This document shows, one piece after another, positions 15,811 to 26,116 of a stretch of DNA of 32,756 nucleotides. Made by a program: the position numbers and the translations under genes. Each line of letters starts with the position of its first letter. Position 1 is the first letter of the stretch. Below the pieces are notes generated by a model. The model was not told the DNA's origin. It searched no databases and was given only the letters and a program-made list of their open reading frames with translations. Source of the DNA: Candidatus Kuenenia stuttgartensis (GTDB lineage Bacteria; Planctomycetota; Phycisphaerae; Phycisphaerales; SM1A02); NCBI GenBank assembly GCA_945902075.1, contig CAMDMA010000038.1:1-32756 (forward strand), given 5' to 3'.

Positions 15811-15934
15811 TCGTCCTTCGCGTTGTGGAGAACAACACTTTTTGCGTTCTAAGAACTCCTGTGAGAACCGCTCACTTTTAAGAGGCATTCCGTAATACGC
15901 GGCTGAAATCTTGATCGCGACAACGAGGATAAAG

Positions 15935-17791
15935 ATGGAGCGTGAGTCGATCCAAGCGCAGAAATACGTGGGTCAACTCGCGGAGAGCTCTCCTGTGTGG
16001 GCAGGGTCCGCCACGACGCAGATCGGTGAGGCTTCAACGGTTGGGGTAGAGCGAACACGGCTCCATCATCTCGACGCGCTGCGAGCGTTCGCCATGCTGC
16101 TTGGGATCGCCCTACATGCAGCGCTGGCCTATGCGATTCCATACTGGATCGTGGTTGACGCGCGGCAATCGAAACTGCTCGGACTGCTCTTTCTTGGAAT
16201 CCACGGATTCCGCATGCAACTGTTTTTTCTCCTCAGCGGCTATTTCACTGCGATGCTGTGGAAGCGCTTTGGACTGCGTGCGCTCGTCTTCCATCGCGCA
16301 CGTCGCGTCGCGATTCCGCTCGCGCTTGGCTGCGTGACCGTACTCCCGGTGATGTGGGGCGTGTCACGATGGGCAGGAAGTGTGAATGCGCGCGCAGCCA
16401 TGCCACGTGAGGGGGTCGTCACGGCAATCGATTCCGCGCGAGATGTTTGGACGGCGGCAAGGTTTGGCAATATCAACGCACTCAAAGCGCATCTCCTCCG
16501 GGGTGCGTCGCCTAACGGGGTGGAGCCGATCTCTGGGCAGAGTCCTCTCGGCTGGGCGGTGATCGGTGGGCACGAGGCTGCGGTAGATGTACTGCTTGCA
16601 CTGGGCGCGAACGCGAGCGGTCGATTCCGAGATGGAAATACGCCGCTCCATAACGCCGCCTTTCTCGGTCGCGCCACGATCGCAACGCAGTTGCTCGCCG
16701 CAGGTGCGGAGGTCGCGGCGATGAATGAACGAAGCCAGAGGCCCCTTGATGCGTTGAGGCATGACCGCGCGACGACGGAGTTCATCGCGAGCCTTTTGCA
16801 GATTTCGATTGATTTCCCGCAAGTTCTTGAGGGGCGCGAGCAGGTTCGCGTGATGCTCCAACTGTACGAAGCCGAGTCAGGGTTTACGCGGCGAGAGGGG
16901 ACCGCCGCGCGTAGCGATGCCAACAGCCGCCGTGTTGGAGGCCGTATCGTTGAAGTCCTACGACGACCCTTCTTTGATCATCTCTGGTTTCTTTGGTTCC
17001 TCTGCTGGATGATCGGTGCGTTCGCACTCTTCGCGAAGGCGTGCGAATGCATGCCGTATGGCGCGTCTTGGCAGAATCGGTTCGCAAGCTCGCGAGCGTT
17101 AGGCGCGTTGGTCGCGACGCCGATCGCGCTCGTCTGGTTGGTTCCGCTGACCGTCGCGTCATATGCCTGGATGCATCCGCCGGAATCGCGTTGGTTCGGT
17201 GCGGAAACCTCAACAAGCGTGTTCCCCATGCCGAGCGCACTCGTCCATTACGCGCTGTTTTTTGCGTTCGGCACACTGCTGTTCCTCCAACCGCACGGAT
17301 CGTCGCGCTTCGGTCGGTGGTGGTGGATTGCGCTTCCACTCGCGGTGGTTGTATTCCCAATCGCACTCGGTTTTTCGATGCAGGCAGCCTGGACGCGCGA
17401 TGTCATCGCGTCAGACGGTGTGCGCCGTTTGATTTCGCTCCTCGGTTCATCGTTGTATGCGTGGCTCGCGTGCATCGCGCTCCTCGGACTCTTTGAGCGC
17501 TGTATCCACCGCGAACGACCGAGCCTGCGCTACCTCTCCGATGCTGCGTATTGGCTCTATCTTGTGCACCTTCCCGTCGTCCTCGCGGGACAAATCTTGA
17601 TGCGCGATGTGGATATCCCGGCGATGATGAAGTTTTCCGTGGTGCTGGTTGGTTCGACAGCGTTAGTACTTGTGGCCTATGAGTTTTTTGTTCGGTATTC
17701 GTGGGTCGGCCGATTGCTCAACGGCGCGCGATCTCCTCGCCACAGCGGCAGGAGAGTGCTGAGTTTGACGAAGAGACGCGGCCCAGAGTGA
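15935..17791 (+). CDS. Acyltransferase-3 family membrane protein with ankyrin repeats inserted
   Basis: This is a 618-residue membrane protein. Residues 42-150 are the front of an acyltransferase-3 domain: HHLDALRAFAMLLGIALHAAL carries the conserved R/H pair, then MQLFFLLSGYFTAMLWKRFG and HRARRVAIPLALG. Residues about 168-290 are soluble and consist of ankyrin repeats (SPLGWAVIGGHEAAVDVLLA, NTPLHNAAFLGRATIATQLL, then QRPLDALRHDRATTEFIASL). From residue 345 the acyltransferase helices resume (FFDHLWFLWFLCWMIGAFAL) and end with YLSDAAYWLYLVHLPVVLAG. The family moves acyl groups across the membrane to sugars; OpgC is one relative. The insertion would sit in an extramembrane loop. The start is set by GAGGA at 15925-15929, 5 bp before the ATG; a TTG further upstream is possible. 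Substrate is unknown. Confidence 0.85.
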   Translation: MERESIQAQKYVGQLAESSPVWAGSATTQIGEASTVGVERTRLHHLDALRAFAMLLGIALHAALAYAIPYWIVVDARQSKLLGLLFLGIHGFRMQLFFLLSGYFTAMLWKRFGLRALVFHRARRVAIPLALGCVTVLPVMWGVSRWAGSVNARAAMPREGVVTAIDSARDVWTAARFGNINALKAHLLRGASPNGVEPISGQSPLGWAVIGGHEAAVDVLLALGANASGRFRDGNTPLHNAAFLGRATIATQLLAAGAEVAAMNERSQRPLDALRHDRATTEFIASLLQISIDFPQVLEGREQVRVMLQLYEAESGFTRREGTAARSDANSRRVGGRIVEVLRRPFFDHLWFLWFLCWMIGAFALFAKACECMPYGASWQNRFASSRALGALVATPIALVWLVPLTVASYAWMHPPESRWFGAETSTSVFPMPSALVHYALFFAFGTLLFLQPHGSSRFGRWWWIALPLAVVVFPIALGFSMQAAWTRDVIASDGVRRLISLLGSSLYAWLACIALLGLFERCIHRERPSLRYLSDAAYWLYLVHLPVVLAGQILMRDVDIPAMMKFSVVLVGSTALVLVAYEFFVRYSWVGRLLNGARSPRHSGRRVLSLTKRRGPE

Positions 17792-17808: not shown

Positions 17809-17868
17809 TTGCGTACTTGATTGGTTGGGCGCGAGGGCCTACATTTGCATCATGGTGCAAGTACGCAA
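17809..17868 (+). promoter_or_regulatory. arsR promoter with flanking inverted repeat (candidate ArsR operator)
   Basis: A sigma-70-like promoter is visible: TTGATT at 17817-17822, a 17-bp spacer, and TACATT at 17840-17845. The expected transcription start falls at or within a base or two of the arsR ATG (17852), so the message is probably leaderless. A perfect 11-bp inverted repeat flanks it: TTGCGTACTTG at 17809-17819 and CAAGTACGCAA at 17858-17868, 38 bp apart. The left arm overlaps the -35 box and the right arm lies inside the start of arsR. A palindrome CGCAATTGCG (17804-17813) overlaps the left arm. Placement suggests ArsR autorepression; this is inference. Confidence 0.6.
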
Positions 17869-18283
17869 GAAACCTCTCTCTTCCGCAGGTAGTGCCCCAC
17901 GCACCCGCCGGCCAATGAGTCCGAAGCAGGCTGTTCGATGTTGCGGGGCGATCGATGAGTTTCTCGACCCATCGCTGTTTAAATCACTCTGCGATCCGAC
18001 GCGTGCGCGGCTGCTCAGTTGTCTAGTCAAGTGTGGGCGCGCGTGTACAGTCGGCGAGGTTGCCGCATGTTGCGCCGTAGATCTTTCAGTCGTTTCGCGC
18101 CACCTTCAGCAACTTTCCCGAGCGGGTCTACTCGCGTCAGTGAAGTCTGGCCGAAGCGTCTCGTACGAAGTTCGGTACGACGATCTTTCCTCAAAACTGC
18201 GCGGTCTCGCAGCGGCAATCGAGGAGTTTCGCCCGGCCTGTATCAAAACGCCATGCTGTGGAGGTTCATGTGCAATCCGCTAA
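17852..18283 (+). CDS. arsR: ArsR-family arsenic-responsive repressor
   Basis: This 143-residue winged-helix regulator belongs to the ArsR/SmtB family, which represses until As(III) or another metal binds. The core is FKSLCDPTRARLLSCLVKCGRACTVGEVAACCAVDLSVVSRHLQQL, in which the recognition helix is DLSVVSRHLQQLSRAGL. It is followed by the wing LASVKSGRSVSYEVRYD. Twelve cysteines are present: C30-C31 near the N terminus, C57/C61/C65 and C73-C74 around the DNA-binding helices, and a C-terminal cluster (C130, C135, C136, C140). Thiol pairs near the reader helix fit As(III) sensing, but which ones bind is not determined. It heads an operon with the arsC-arsM fusion and the aquaporin, and its 3' end overlaps the next start. 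The start matches a promoter whose transcript would begin at the ATG. Confidence 0.9.
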   Translation: MVQVRKKPLSSAGSAPRTRRPMSPKQAVRCCGAIDEFLDPSLFKSLCDPTRARLLSCLVKCGRACTVGEVAACCAVDLSVVSRHLQQLSRAGLLASVKSGRSVSYEVRYDDLSSKLRGLAAAIEEFRPACIKTPCCGGSCAIR

Positions 18284-19745
18284 ACCACGACTCCGCGTGC
18301 TCTTTCTGTGCACTGGAAACTCCTGCCGAAGCCAAATGGCGGAAGGTTGGGCTCGCGCACTCAAGTCTGACTCGATCGACGCTTATTCAGCAGGAACAGC
18401 GCCACATGGCCTGAATCCGCTTGCGGTACGTGCGATGGCGGAGGTCGGTCTCGATATCTCGAGGTACACATCGAAACGTCCCGAAGATTGTGGAGTTGAG
18501 TTCGATTTTGTCGTAACCGTCTGCGATGCGGCGCACGAATCCTGCCCGATTGTTTCAGGTGCACGTGTCGTGCATGTTGGCTTTGATGATCCTCCGCGAC
18601 TTGCGCAATCAGCGTTGACTGGCGAAGAGGCAATGCCGCACTATCGCCGTGTGCGTGACGAGATTCGCGCGTTCGTTGAAACGCTTCCTGCCGCACTTCT
18701 GGCAAGTGCGGTTCCACTGCAGGGTGTCGGTGGAATCCTGAAGGCCGTTTCAATCACGAACCCGTCGTGTTGTGGTGCCGGATGTGAGTGTGCGCCGCAG
18801 TCATCGCCAGTGAGTGATCAAAGTGTGTCCCACGGAGCAGAATCTCTCGTGGCAGCGGATGCGCTGCGTGCACAGGTGCGTGAGGGTTATGCGAGAATCG
18901 CTGAAAGCGGTTGGTGGTCTGAGCCCGGTGCAACTGCAGGTGCGGGTGAAGCGACTTCTGTTGGCGGCTGCGGTGTGGGAGGGGCAGCGGGAGGTGGTTG
19001 CTGCGGCCCGGCGACTTTCACGCCCGAGCAGCTTGCGACTGCGATCGGATACTCGCAAGGTGAACTTGCAGTCGCGCCCGAGGGCGCAAACATGGGTCTT
19101 TCCTGCGGAAATCCCACGGCGATCGCAACGCTCCTCCCTGGAGAAGTGGTGCTCGACCTTGGATCTGGTGGCGGCTTTGATTGCTTCATTGCCGGTGCGA
19201 AGGTTGGGGCAACCGGCCGCGTCATTGGCATTGACATGACTCCTGAGATGCTCAGTAAGGCGCGCCGCAACGCGATCGGTTACGCCGCGCAGACTGGTCA
19301 TGACAACGTGGAGTTCCGGCTCGGTGAAATCGAGCATCTGCCGGTCGCGGACGCAAGCGTTGATGTCGTACTCTCGAATTGCGTCTTCAATCTCTCACCG
19401 GATAAGCCGCGCGTGTGGCGCGAACTTGCCCGCGTACTGAAGCCTGGCGGTCGCGTCGCGGTCTCAGACATCGCGCTTCTTCGGCCATTGCCTGTGGCGG
19501 TGTTACGCGATCTGGAGGCGCTTGTCGGCTGCGTTGCAGGCGCGGTACTGGTCGATGAGATGCGCGCGCAGGCAAGCGCTGCGGGCCTCGGCATGATCGT
19601 GTGTCGCGCGAAGCCCGAGTACATCGAGGCACTGACGGACTGGAGTGACCCGTTGTATGTCAAGATTCTCTCCGCGTTACCCGCAGGATCGAAGCCGAGC
19701 GAGTACATCACCAGCGTCGATATGACGGCGGTTAAGCCACGATGA
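18270..19745 (+). CDS. arsC-arsM: Fusion of arsenate reductase (ArsC, low-Mr phosphatase type) and arsenite methyltransferase (ArsM)
   Basis: This is a single 491-residue protein. Residues about 8-145 are the thioredoxin-linked ArsC: the C-x5-R P-loop [17 protein letters not shown] (C14, C19, R20), [16 protein letters not shown] with C85 and C92 for the disulfide cascade, and the general-acid region GFDDPPRL. A linker of about 50 residues contains the cluster [10 protein letters not shown]. Residues about 195-480 are Ars[11 protein letters not shown], a Cys pair at 244-245, [26 protein letters not shown] (SAM motif I), [23 protein letters not shown] and LVGCVAGAV. Three conserved As-binding Cys are therefore present (about C279, C371, C421). 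ArsC reduces arsenate; ArsM methylates As(III). The GTG at 18270 has GGAGG 5 bp upstream; GTG at 18258 is an alternative. The gene overlaps arsR, and its ATGA overlaps the aquaporin start. The frame is unbroken through the junction. Confidence 0.92.
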
Positions 19746-20422
19746 GCGTTGTGCAGGCAAGCATGCTCCGCCGATGTTCAGCAGAGTGTGTTGGTACTTT
19801 TTGCCTGGTATTTATGGGGACGGGCGCAATCGTCGTCAATGAAGTTTCGAATGGGGCGATCGGCCACATCGGAGTTGCGCTCGTGTTCGGGCTTGCGGTG
19901 CTTGCATTGATCTCCGCGTTCGGCGATGTGTCTGGAGCCCACATGAATCCCGCGGTTTCCCTTGCATTCTGGGTTTCGGGTCGGTTTCCCGGCAAAGGCG
20001 TCGCTCCATACGTCGTGGCGCAGTTCCTTGGAGCGCTGGTGGCGTCGCTCCTCGTGCGAGTGATCTTCCCAAACGCTGTGTCACTCGGGTCGACCATTCC
20101 GACAGGTTCGACCGCGCAGTCCTTCGTGCTTGAGGTCGTACTCTCGGCGATGTTGATGCTGGTCATTCTCGGGGTGTCACACGGGCCGAAGGAGAAAGGT
20201 CTTGTTGCGGGGACTGCAATCGGCGCGTTTGTTGGGCTTGAAGCACTCTTCGCGGGTCCGATTTCAGGCGCCTCGATGAATCCAGCGCGCTCGCTCGCGC
20301 CTGCGCTCGTCGCGGGCGCGATCGGTGACGTGTGGATCTATCTGGTTGCACCGACGATTGGCGCACTCATCGCAGTCCCGTTGAGCCGCGCAGTGCTTCC
20401 GCGTGATAAGACATTTGCCTGA
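19742..20422 (+). CDS. aqpS: MIP-family aquaporin/aquaglyceroporin of the arsenic operon (AqpS-like)
   Basis: This is a 226-residue six-helix channel with both signature loops, HMNPAVS (NPA at 69-71) and SMNPARS (NPA at 180-182, R183). It starts with RCSAECVGTFCLVFMGTGAIVV and ends with WIYLVAPTIGALIAVPLSRAV, the last helix. By alignment to E. coli AqpZ, the selectivity-filter His appears to be replaced by Ala (A168), which would widen the pore; this is inferred by eye. In Sinorhizobium meliloti AqpS replaces an ArsB pump and lets arsenite leave down its gradient, and a similar role is likely here. Translation is coupled by an ATGA overlap with the upstream fusion gene. No downstream terminator is clear. 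Confidence 0.88.
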   Translation: MSVVQASMLRRCSAECVGTFCLVFMGTGAIVVNEVSNGAIGHIGVALVFGLAVLALISAFGDVSGAHMNPAVSLAFWVSGRFPGKGVAPYVVAQFLGALVASLLVRVIFPNAVSLGSTIPTGSTAQSFVLEVVLSAMLMLVILGVSHGPKEKGLVAGTAIGAFVGLEALFAGPISGASMNPARSLAPALVAGAIGDVWIYLVAPTIGALIAVPLSRAVLPRDKTFA

Positions 20423-24814: not shown

Positions 24815-26116
24815 TCATCTGACTGCGCCCTCGTCGCACGATCCCCACGCCGCAAGCACCGCGGCAAGGTCGGCAGCATCGGTAATGCCGTTTTCATCGA
24901 CATCCGCTGTCGAGGCAAAGCCCCAGTGAGAGAGCAACGCACTGAGGTCCGCCGCATCGACGGTGCGGTCACCGTTGGTATCCGCTCTGCAGGGCGCTGA
25001 GCCGAAGGGGAGGCGGCCCCATGCAACGAGATTCGTCGGCGATGGAGCGGGAGTCAGTGCGCCGTAGATGCAGCCGAACGACAGCGACTCACCTGGCGCA
25101 AGTGATCCGTTGTAGTGGAGATTGGTGACCGTCGTGCGCGCGCCGGTTTGCGCAAATGCGCCGTTCCACAGGCTCGAAAGAGTAGCCTCCCAATCGAATG
25201 CCACCGTCCAACCCTCGATGGAACTGAGCGATGGGTTTGTGACGGTGAACTCCGCCTGCCCGCCGCTCACCCACGCCTCAACGAGGCGAAAATCCGTTGC
25301 AAGCGGAATCAGCTGAGGATCGCTGCCATCGCCACCCTCTCCGTAGTCAACACCTCCGAAGTCGAGATCGCTTGTCGAGAAAAACGCTTCGCCCGCTGGG
25401 TCGTCGCGCTGCCAAACCACGAACAACACATGGCGACCGACGCGCTCTGGAAAGTCGAGCGTCATCTCGTAGTGCATCGGTGCACCGGTTGCGCCGCATT
25501 GGCAGTCAGAACCGGACTTTCCGCAAGAACCGATGAGCGTTGCCGATTCGCCGCCCGGGAGTGCCACGAGGTCATTCCAGTGGAGCGGCTGTCGTGGGTC
25601 GTAACCTGACTTCGTGATGAAGGCAAGGAAATGGCTCGGCTCATGCGGTGTCATCGCGCAAAATCGGCAAACACGCGGGCCGGCGACTGCGGGCGTCGCG
25701 AACCAGTCGGTGCGTGCGAGATCGAGCCCGGCATATTTTTTGCGCCCAGCGCTTGCGAGTCGTCCGTTTGGAATTTCACCCTGGTAGTCGAGGCTCGGGA
25801 TATTGAGCGAGACTTCGTGCCAGTCGTAAAAAGCCTGCGTTCCGGAAACGGCGATCGCAGCACGAGCAGCGTCACTTTGCGGCGATTCCGGATTGTCTTG
25901 AAAAATCTTGAAGACTCGGCTTGGTGGATCGGACATCGAGCCGTGCGCGCATGCTTCAGCGGTTATTCCAAGCGCGATGAAAGCAAACATTCCAATCGCG
26001 TGCCGAAGGGCAGTCGCTACGAAACCAGAAGTAGGTCCGTTGACGCGGGACGCGGTACGGAAGCGTGTGATGCAAATGATCGGGTCGGCCGAGCGAGCAG
26101 AGAGAAATCGTGTCAT
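24815..26116 (-). CDS. Secreted lytic polysaccharide monooxygenase (AA10) with CBM2 and dockerin-like modules
   Basis: This 433-residue secreted copper enzyme would oxidatively cleave chitin or cellulose. The signal peptide ends ...ITAEACA, exposing H58 as the mature N-terminal His (HGSMSDPPSR), the first histidine of the brace. The AA10 core has NGRLASAGRKKYAGLD, TPHEPSHFLAFITKSGYDPR (H158 is the second brace His candidate) and GRHVLFVVWQRDDPAGEAFF, where the axial Phe occurs near 245-246. Residues about 275-375 form a CBM2-type domain (VEAWVSGGQAEFTVTNPSLS). Residues 385-428 are two D-x-N-G-D/D-x-D-x-N-G calcium loops with DAADLSALLSHWG and DAADLAAVLAAWG, a dockerin-like repeat common in planctomycetes. 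The ATG at 26114-26116 gives a long N-region, so a later start is possible, for example near M43. Confidence 0.87.
   Translation of the reverse strand: MTRFLSARSADPIICITRFRTASRVNGPTSGFVATALRHAIGMFAFIALGITAEACAHGSMSDPPSRVFKIFQDNPESPQSDAARAAIAVSGTQAFYDWHEVSLNIPSLDYQGEIPNGRLASAGRKKYAGLDLARTDWFATPAVAGPRVCRFCAMTPHEPSHFLAFITKSGYDPRQPLHWNDLVALPGGESATLIGSCGKSGSDCQCGATGAPMHYEMTLDFPERVGRHVLFVVWQRDDPAGEAFFSTSDLDFGGVDYGEGGDGSDPQLIPLATDFRLVEAWVSGGQAEFTVTNPSLSSIEGWTVAFDWEATLSSLWNGAFAQTGARTTVTNLHYNGSLAPGESLSFGCIYGALTPAPSPTNLVAWGRLPFGSAPCRADTNGDRTVDAADLSALLSHWGFASTADVDENGITDAADLAAVLAAWGSCDEGAVR

Follow-up and report, generated by a model that had tools for sequence, protein, structure and literature searches.

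The window analysed in the present study is the whole of contig 38 (CAMDMA010000038.1, 32,756 nt) of a metagenome-assembled genome (MAG) assigned to Candidatus Kuenenia stuttgartensis (3.3 Mb, 70 contigs, 97% complete). On its plus strand, positions 17852-20422 carry arsR, a single gene in which an arsenate reductase (ArsC) is joined to an arsenite methyltransferase (ArsM), and a gene for a channel of the major intrinsic protein (MIP) family, each overlapping the next. The ArsC-ArsM fusion is a real, recurrent and apparently undescribed joining of known parts. The gene order proposed by a sequence-only reading of this DNA was confirmed: the frame 18258-19745 is a single stop-free frame spanning both domains, with overlaps of 14 nt between ArsR and the fusion (18270-18283) and of 4 nt between the fusion and the MIP gene (19742-19745), and the channel and ArsC thus lie in separate frames. 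ArsR also has its own frame and is not joined to ArsM. The features are listed below (LMW, low-molecular-weight; SAM, S-adenosylmethionine; pLDDT, predicted local distance difference test).

17852-18283, plus strand: arsR, a repressor of the ArsR/SmtB type (HTH_metalloreg, 56.5 bits, cut-off 55)
18270-19745, plus strand: arsCM, the arsenate reductase-arsenite methyltransferase fusion, 491 residues, GTG start with GGAGG (domain matches, start-site inspection)
18270-18704, plus strand: ArsC domain of the LMW-phosphatase type, residues 1-145, with C14-x5-R20, C85 and C92 (PF01451, TIGR02691, PDB 1jl3; fold 2cd7/1jl3)
18705-19019, plus strand: linker and N-terminal arm of ArsM, residues 146-250, predicted disordered (pLDDT below 50), with SCCGAGCEC (C167, C168, C172, C174)
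19020-19742, plus strand: ArsM core, residues 251-491, with the SAM motif DLGSGGGFD, C279, C371 and C421 (NF008823, CrArsM/CmArsM fold, invariant cysteines)
19742-20422, plus strand: MIP channel, 226 residues, two NPA motifs (PF00230, 178 bits; PDB and ars-MIP alignments)

The proteins of the operon

The best start of the fusion is GTG 18270, with GGAGG 5 nt upstream. Numbered along the frame 18258-19745, residues 14-112 match LMWPc (PF01451; 50.9 bits, Pfam cut-off 23.2) and residues 200-494 match the arsenite methyltransferase model NF008823 (PRK11873; 289 bits, curated cut-off 263), and in the NCBIfam scan the two halves are matched by separate models. Among solved structures, the ArsC half matches ArsC of B. 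subtilis (1jl3, 5e-30) and S. aureus (4.7e-27), and the ArsM half matches CrArsM (8e-29). As the sequence-only reading had stated, the key residues are intact in both halves: the SAM motif is present, and C14, R20, C85, C92, C279, C371 and C421 are invariant in 13 aligned fusions, the window included. We take C85 and C92 to be the counterparts of Cys82 and Cys89 of pI258, the second and third redox cysteines, and C279, C371 and C421 are the three conserved As(III)-binding cysteines of ArsM. An AlphaFold model built from the 13 fusion sequences (mean pLDDT 70.5, predicted template modelling score 0.50) contains two folded parts, and residues 150-254 of its 495 have a pLDDT below 50. When this model was searched with Foldseek, ArsM structures ranked first and ArsC structures were found at ranks 45 and 48 (template modelling scores by target, 0.84 and 0.81); no solved ArsC-ArsM relative was observed among the best 50 rows.

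ATG 17852 is probably the start of ArsR, judging from the C-I-M-x-Q-x-R-K frame at this point, which is common to several relatives. The window ArsR carries the cysteines KCGRAC and CC beside the helix-turn-helix and a CCGGSC tail. Counted by eye, K-C-x-R-x-C is found just ahead of the recognition helix in 16 of the 17 rows aligned, and CC in every one of them; most of the rows also have a cysteine-rich tail.

The MIP channel is the only transporter of the operon. It matches PF00230 with 178 bits against a Pfam cut-off of 25, contains the NPA motif twice, and falls just under the cut-off of the NCBIfam model TIGR00861 (169.3 bits, cut-off 171.25). Its closest solved relative is the plant channel NIP2-1 (commonly named Lsi1; 9.9e-40), followed by AqpZ (2.7e-30). 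At the positions of the aromatic/arginine filter in AqpZ, F43, H174, T183 and R189 (PMC11316224), the PDB alignment gives F-A-A-R for the window channel, with smaller residues than in AqpZ at two positions, and eight ars MIPs with at least 55% identity, including that of the window, are alike here by eye. The window channel differs from NIP2-1 in this filter, which reads G-S-G-R there in the same alignment, and a kinship with AqpN-type bacterial MIPs is putative. The title of Pommerrenig et al. 2020 connects nodulin-26-like channels with the detoxification of arsenic in bacteria.

Recurrence of the fused gene

Complete and uninterrupted ArsC-ArsM frames were observed 18 times, and a 19th (G006) is interrupted by a contig end. 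Seven are from the family of the window (G000, which is the own genome, G001, G003, G005, G010, G011 and G034), eight from a second family of the order (G243, G263, G301, G309, G315, G351, G363 and G400) and two from another family of the class (G492 and G613); the last, L086, comes from a possibly misbinned record with the title Candidatus Hydrogenedentota. The fusion is therefore not unique to the own genome, and with an uninterrupted frame in 17 further genomes or records, it is not an accident of chance or assembly. Fused genes were counted in 8 of the 181 family genomes (one being the contig-end piece of G006), at least 15 of 400 in the order sample and at least 7 of 397 in the class sample; the three samples overlap, and all of the counts are lower bounds, as mainly listed matches with long open frames were examined and the best 80 loci were retained from the search of public records. 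None of 72,556 plasmid records had one place covering 80% of the fusion query. The loci L101, L102, L103, L105 and L106, which seemed near full-length at first, were rejected as fusions because none has one uninterrupted ArsC-ArsM frame.

Fused and split genes are mixed in the trees of ArsC plus ArsM. A tree of 51 rows (18 fused) requires 8 fused/split changes (bootstrap range 7-8), at least 5 of them forced by well supported branches, and a tree of 53 rows (16 fused) requires 7, at least 3 of them forced. The bootstrap of the 51-row tree is not settled, and gains are not distinguishable from losses. Relative to the 53-row tree, four rows with a long branch, a near-duplicate or poor trimming (L101, L105, L175 and L084) were removed from the 51-row tree and L223 and L224 were included, and G006 is in neither; fused and same-frame loci are over-represented among the rows, and 18 of 51 is thus not a prevalence. 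In G037, G042, G046 and G050, acr3 sits between arsC and arsM. NCBIfam lists ArsM selenoproteins, and selenocysteine was considered at the in-frame stop of split loci; this idea was rejected, as in the loci inspected the stop follows the end of ArsC and a methionine start comes after it.

As a separate observation, ArsC is followed by Acr3 in one open frame in L062 and L193 (genomes G189 and G199), making a fusion of reductase and pump in an order apparently opposite to that of Acr3-ArsC; for G189 this comes from coordinates and the shared open frame, and G199 was checked.

Transporters beside the fused gene

The place behind the fusion is occupied by different transporters. The complete order ArsR-(ArsC-ArsM)-MIP is observed in four genomes (G000, G243, G363 and G400), and G006 is likely a fifth, spread over two contigs, the second of which carries the ArsM piece with a MIP gene behind it. 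In six genomes (G001, G003, G005, G010, G011 and G034), acr3 directly follows the fusion, and a distant Acr3-like gene lies behind it in L086 (33%) and G492 (35%). As the sequence-only reading had noted, the operon of the window has a channel and no pump, and this extends to its genome, in which no match to Acr3, ArsB or ArsP was found (a MAG, 97% complete). ArsB was absent from all 16 genomes of the genus and ArsP_1 from all 15 genomes searched, the own genome included in both. Acr3 was found in none of seven genomes with an operon MIP (G000, G030, G243, G363, G299, G318 and G006, the last on two contigs and 82% complete; G400 was outside this whole-genome set), and a whole-genome search for MIP found none in the six fused genomes with an operon acr3 (G010 and G011 being 80-84% complete).

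At two loci (L052, 6469-6858; L081, 2431-2835), arsM is separated from the MIP or acr3 gene by another ArsC-like gene, with 41% to the window ArsC.

The linker

The linkers of G001 and G011 differ by 11 synonymous and 4 non-synonymous changes over 76 codons (Fisher 9e-5, resting on site totals derived from estimated rates), which is the pattern expected for a translated linker. In the ArsM core of this pair, only 4 synonymous differences are present in 254 codons, and rates are thus uneven. The comparison of G005 with G010 gives a linker ratio of 0.29, from 19 codons only. The split ArsM proteins studied here often start with an arm resembling CCGPxCC, and many fusions retain this arm in the middle of the linker, as with SCCGAGCEC in the window. 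With a cluster defined as at least 3 cysteines in 9 residues, under our own trimming and with 2 of 55 rows left out for want of the anchor motif, one is present in 13 of the 18 fused rows and in 18 of the 35 split ones, counted in the linker or arm. The cluster is not essential to the fusion, because the short linkers of G003 and G010 are without it.

Neighbouring genes

Upstream of the operon, 15911-17791 encodes an Acyltransferase-3 protein matched in two stretches; its ankyrin repeats (residues 181-272) are apparently inserted within the membrane domain. Further downstream, on the minus strand, 24815-26116 encodes a protein with LPMO_10 and CBM_2; its dockerin match is weak and below the cut-off.

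Discussion

Several fusions of arsenic resistance proteins have been described. AqpS-ArsC, Acr3-ArsC, ArsR-ArsC, and ArsN with ArsC or ArsD are listed in PMC6205960, a bifunctional ArsR-ArsM protein is reported from Brevundimonas sp. M20 (PMC10190100), and ArsM is fused to SelD in a protist (PMC5552862). The AqpS-ArsC protein of Salinispora tropica (Wu et al. 2010, cited in PMC6205960) is like the present system in that ArsC is fused to the next disposal step and a MIP goes with ArsC; there, however, the channel itself is the fused partner, whereas here ArsM is fused and the channel has an overlapping gene of its own. The Brevundimonas protein also joins an ArsM-type methyltransferase to another ars protein, but its partner is a regulator rather than a reductase and it sits in a met operon. 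Acr3-ArsC of Mycobacterium tuberculosis, ArsR-ArsC and the ArsN fusions mark ArsC as a frequent fusion partner, but a methyltransferase is absent from them as they are described in PMC6205960. A lone MIP in an ars operon is already known: in an independent survey (PMC4435449), all 18 of the MIPs located in ars operons lacked a second transporter beside them, and in these, as in the aqpS operon of Sinorhizobium meliloti, the MIP replaces ArsB or Acr3; unlike here, an ArsC-ArsM fusion is not mentioned in the available portion of that survey. The available portions of PMC7826186, PMC2398784 and PMC5430908 likewise contain none. The sequence-only reading knew of no characterised protein with this architecture, and in agreement with it, our literature search found no published ArsC-ArsM fusion, with subscription journals thinly covered and the full protein databases outside its scope.

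Herein, we lean towards a tethered bifunctional ArsC-ArsM with passive exit through the MIP, encoded in a three-gene operon induced by arsenic. As(III) would release ArsR and thereby induce the operon. The N-terminal ArsC domain would then reduce arsenate, probably coupled to thioredoxin, and the C-terminal ArsM domain would methylate As(III) with SAM. The flexible, cysteine-bearing tether would provide equal amounts of both enzymes and hold the source of As(III) near its consumer. Unmethylated As(OH)3 would leave the cell down its gradient through the MIP, which would replace the Acr3 pump of the sister operons. The single stop-free frame, the conserved catalytic residues, the recurrence of the fusion, the common place of MIP and Acr3 and the lack of known pumps are direct observations, from which we infer expression as one chain, retention of both activities, an advantage of tethering and passage of As(OH)3 through the channel. 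Linker cysteines might also pass As(III) between the sites, which we offer as a suggestion.

A number of results weigh against this reading. First, the ArsC half scores 124.4 bits against TIGR02691, the NCBIfam equivalog for thioredoxin arsenate reductases, below the cut-off of 174.3; it falls outside this model, yet should work like a thioredoxin-type reductase. Second, AlphaFold predicts a disordered tether of about 105 residues between the two folded domains, and both the length and the sequence of the linker differ greatly among the 13 aligned fusions. The direct transfer of As(III) across the tether is thus the weakest step. Third, split neighbours are common, as 37 of 53 loci chosen for comparison are split and arsC and arsM are separate neighbours even in the own genus (G007 and G012). 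No support was found for the direct hand-over of As(III) from reductase to methylase that the sequence-only reading had proposed, given the predicted disorder of the tether, the variable linker and the enzymes kept separate in G007 and G012.

Fourth, several results concern the transporters. Neither Acr3 nor MIP is present in the examined stretch of six fused operons (G301, G309, G263, G315, G351 and G613), and an adjoining transporter is therefore not essential to the module; Acr3 lies on another contig in G309 and G315, and none was found in whole-genome searches of G301 and G263. In addition, Acr3 is found in just 40 of 181 family genomes and is also absent from five of seven searched genomes not counted as having an operon MIP (G007, G012, G013, G301 and G263), and its absence from all seven genomes with an operon MIP is thus weak evidence alone. 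In the 51-row tree, the clustering of Acr3 and MIP is no stronger than in shuffles, and in L089 a distant MIP (36%) is upstream of arsR with Acr3 also present. Finally, the operon MIP is the sole MIP of the own genome, and a general role in water transport is possible for it. Separately from these points, the downstream frames of five fused loci without Acr3 or MIP in the stretch (L180, L181, L182, L085 and L167) appeared by eye to be unrelated to arsenic transport.

The best of the other explanations, possible in our view and less probable, is a nearly neutral fusion, in which adjacent arsC and arsM were joined by stop loss or a frame shift and the enzymes remain independent, the only gain being fixed stoichiometry. 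Same-frame pairs with one or two stops between them make up 11 of the 37 split loci (G041, G241, G209, G312, G302, G318, G206, G279, G330, G288 and L103), and in most second-family fusions the methionine at which ArsM formerly started is still present within the frame, a sign of stop loss. The variable and disordered linkers and the frequent fused/split changes on the tree are also consistent with such an origin. On the other hand, the fusion has arisen or been kept in many genomes with the catalytic residues of either half conserved, and the linker of one pair (G001/G011) is under in-frame constraint, although both observations are still compatible with neutrality.

Two further explanations appear unlikely. 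One is a dual reading of the gene, in which a shorter, internally initiated ArsM is made beside the full-length protein. Most second-family fusions, and G034 as well, have an ATG within the frame where ArsM begins, and the window offers GTG 18849 (GGAG 11 nt upstream) and ATG 18633 within the ArsC domain (GAGG 2 nt upstream); however, the window linker has no ATG and both of these sites are poorly spaced. The other, similarly doubtful, is that the channel carries methylarsenite (CH3As(OH)2) produced by ArsM rather than arsenite. The MIP occupies the place of an As(III) pump in the sister operons, and some ars operons that lack ArsM, such as that of S. meliloti aqpS, contain a MIP too, both of which count against a methylated cargo. 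In its favor are the absence of ArsP_1 from the 15 genomes, the two smaller filter residues, and the transport of methylarsonous acid by aquaglyceroporins, as given in the title of PMC1440775. The position behind the fusion shared by MIP or Acr3 fits the overflow route for As(III) that the sequence-only reading had proposed for the aquaporin, but it is equally compatible with a release of methylarsenite.

A still more speculative and rather improbable extension is a module for making and releasing a poison, in which the tethered fusion would produce methylarsenite with little free As(III), the linker cysteines would ferry arsenic, and the channel would release methylarsenite to the harm of competitors. 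An assembly error or chimaeric contig, which a MAG in 70 contigs might suggest, is contradicted by the uninterrupted frame in 17 others, the nearly identical linkers of G001 and G011 and the level GC content across the operon, and is most improbable.

For a tethered bifunctional ArsC-ArsM, the significance lies in the chemistry of the pathway: the reduction of arsenate yields a more toxic product, and the coupling of the reductase to the next enzyme is therefore a testable question. If the make-and-release account were true, the fusion and the channel would form a production line rather than plain detoxification. The related genomes, with the pair fused or split and placed beside a pump, a channel or neither, provide a natural comparison set, and with the present fusion a methylase joins the list of ArsC fusion partners.

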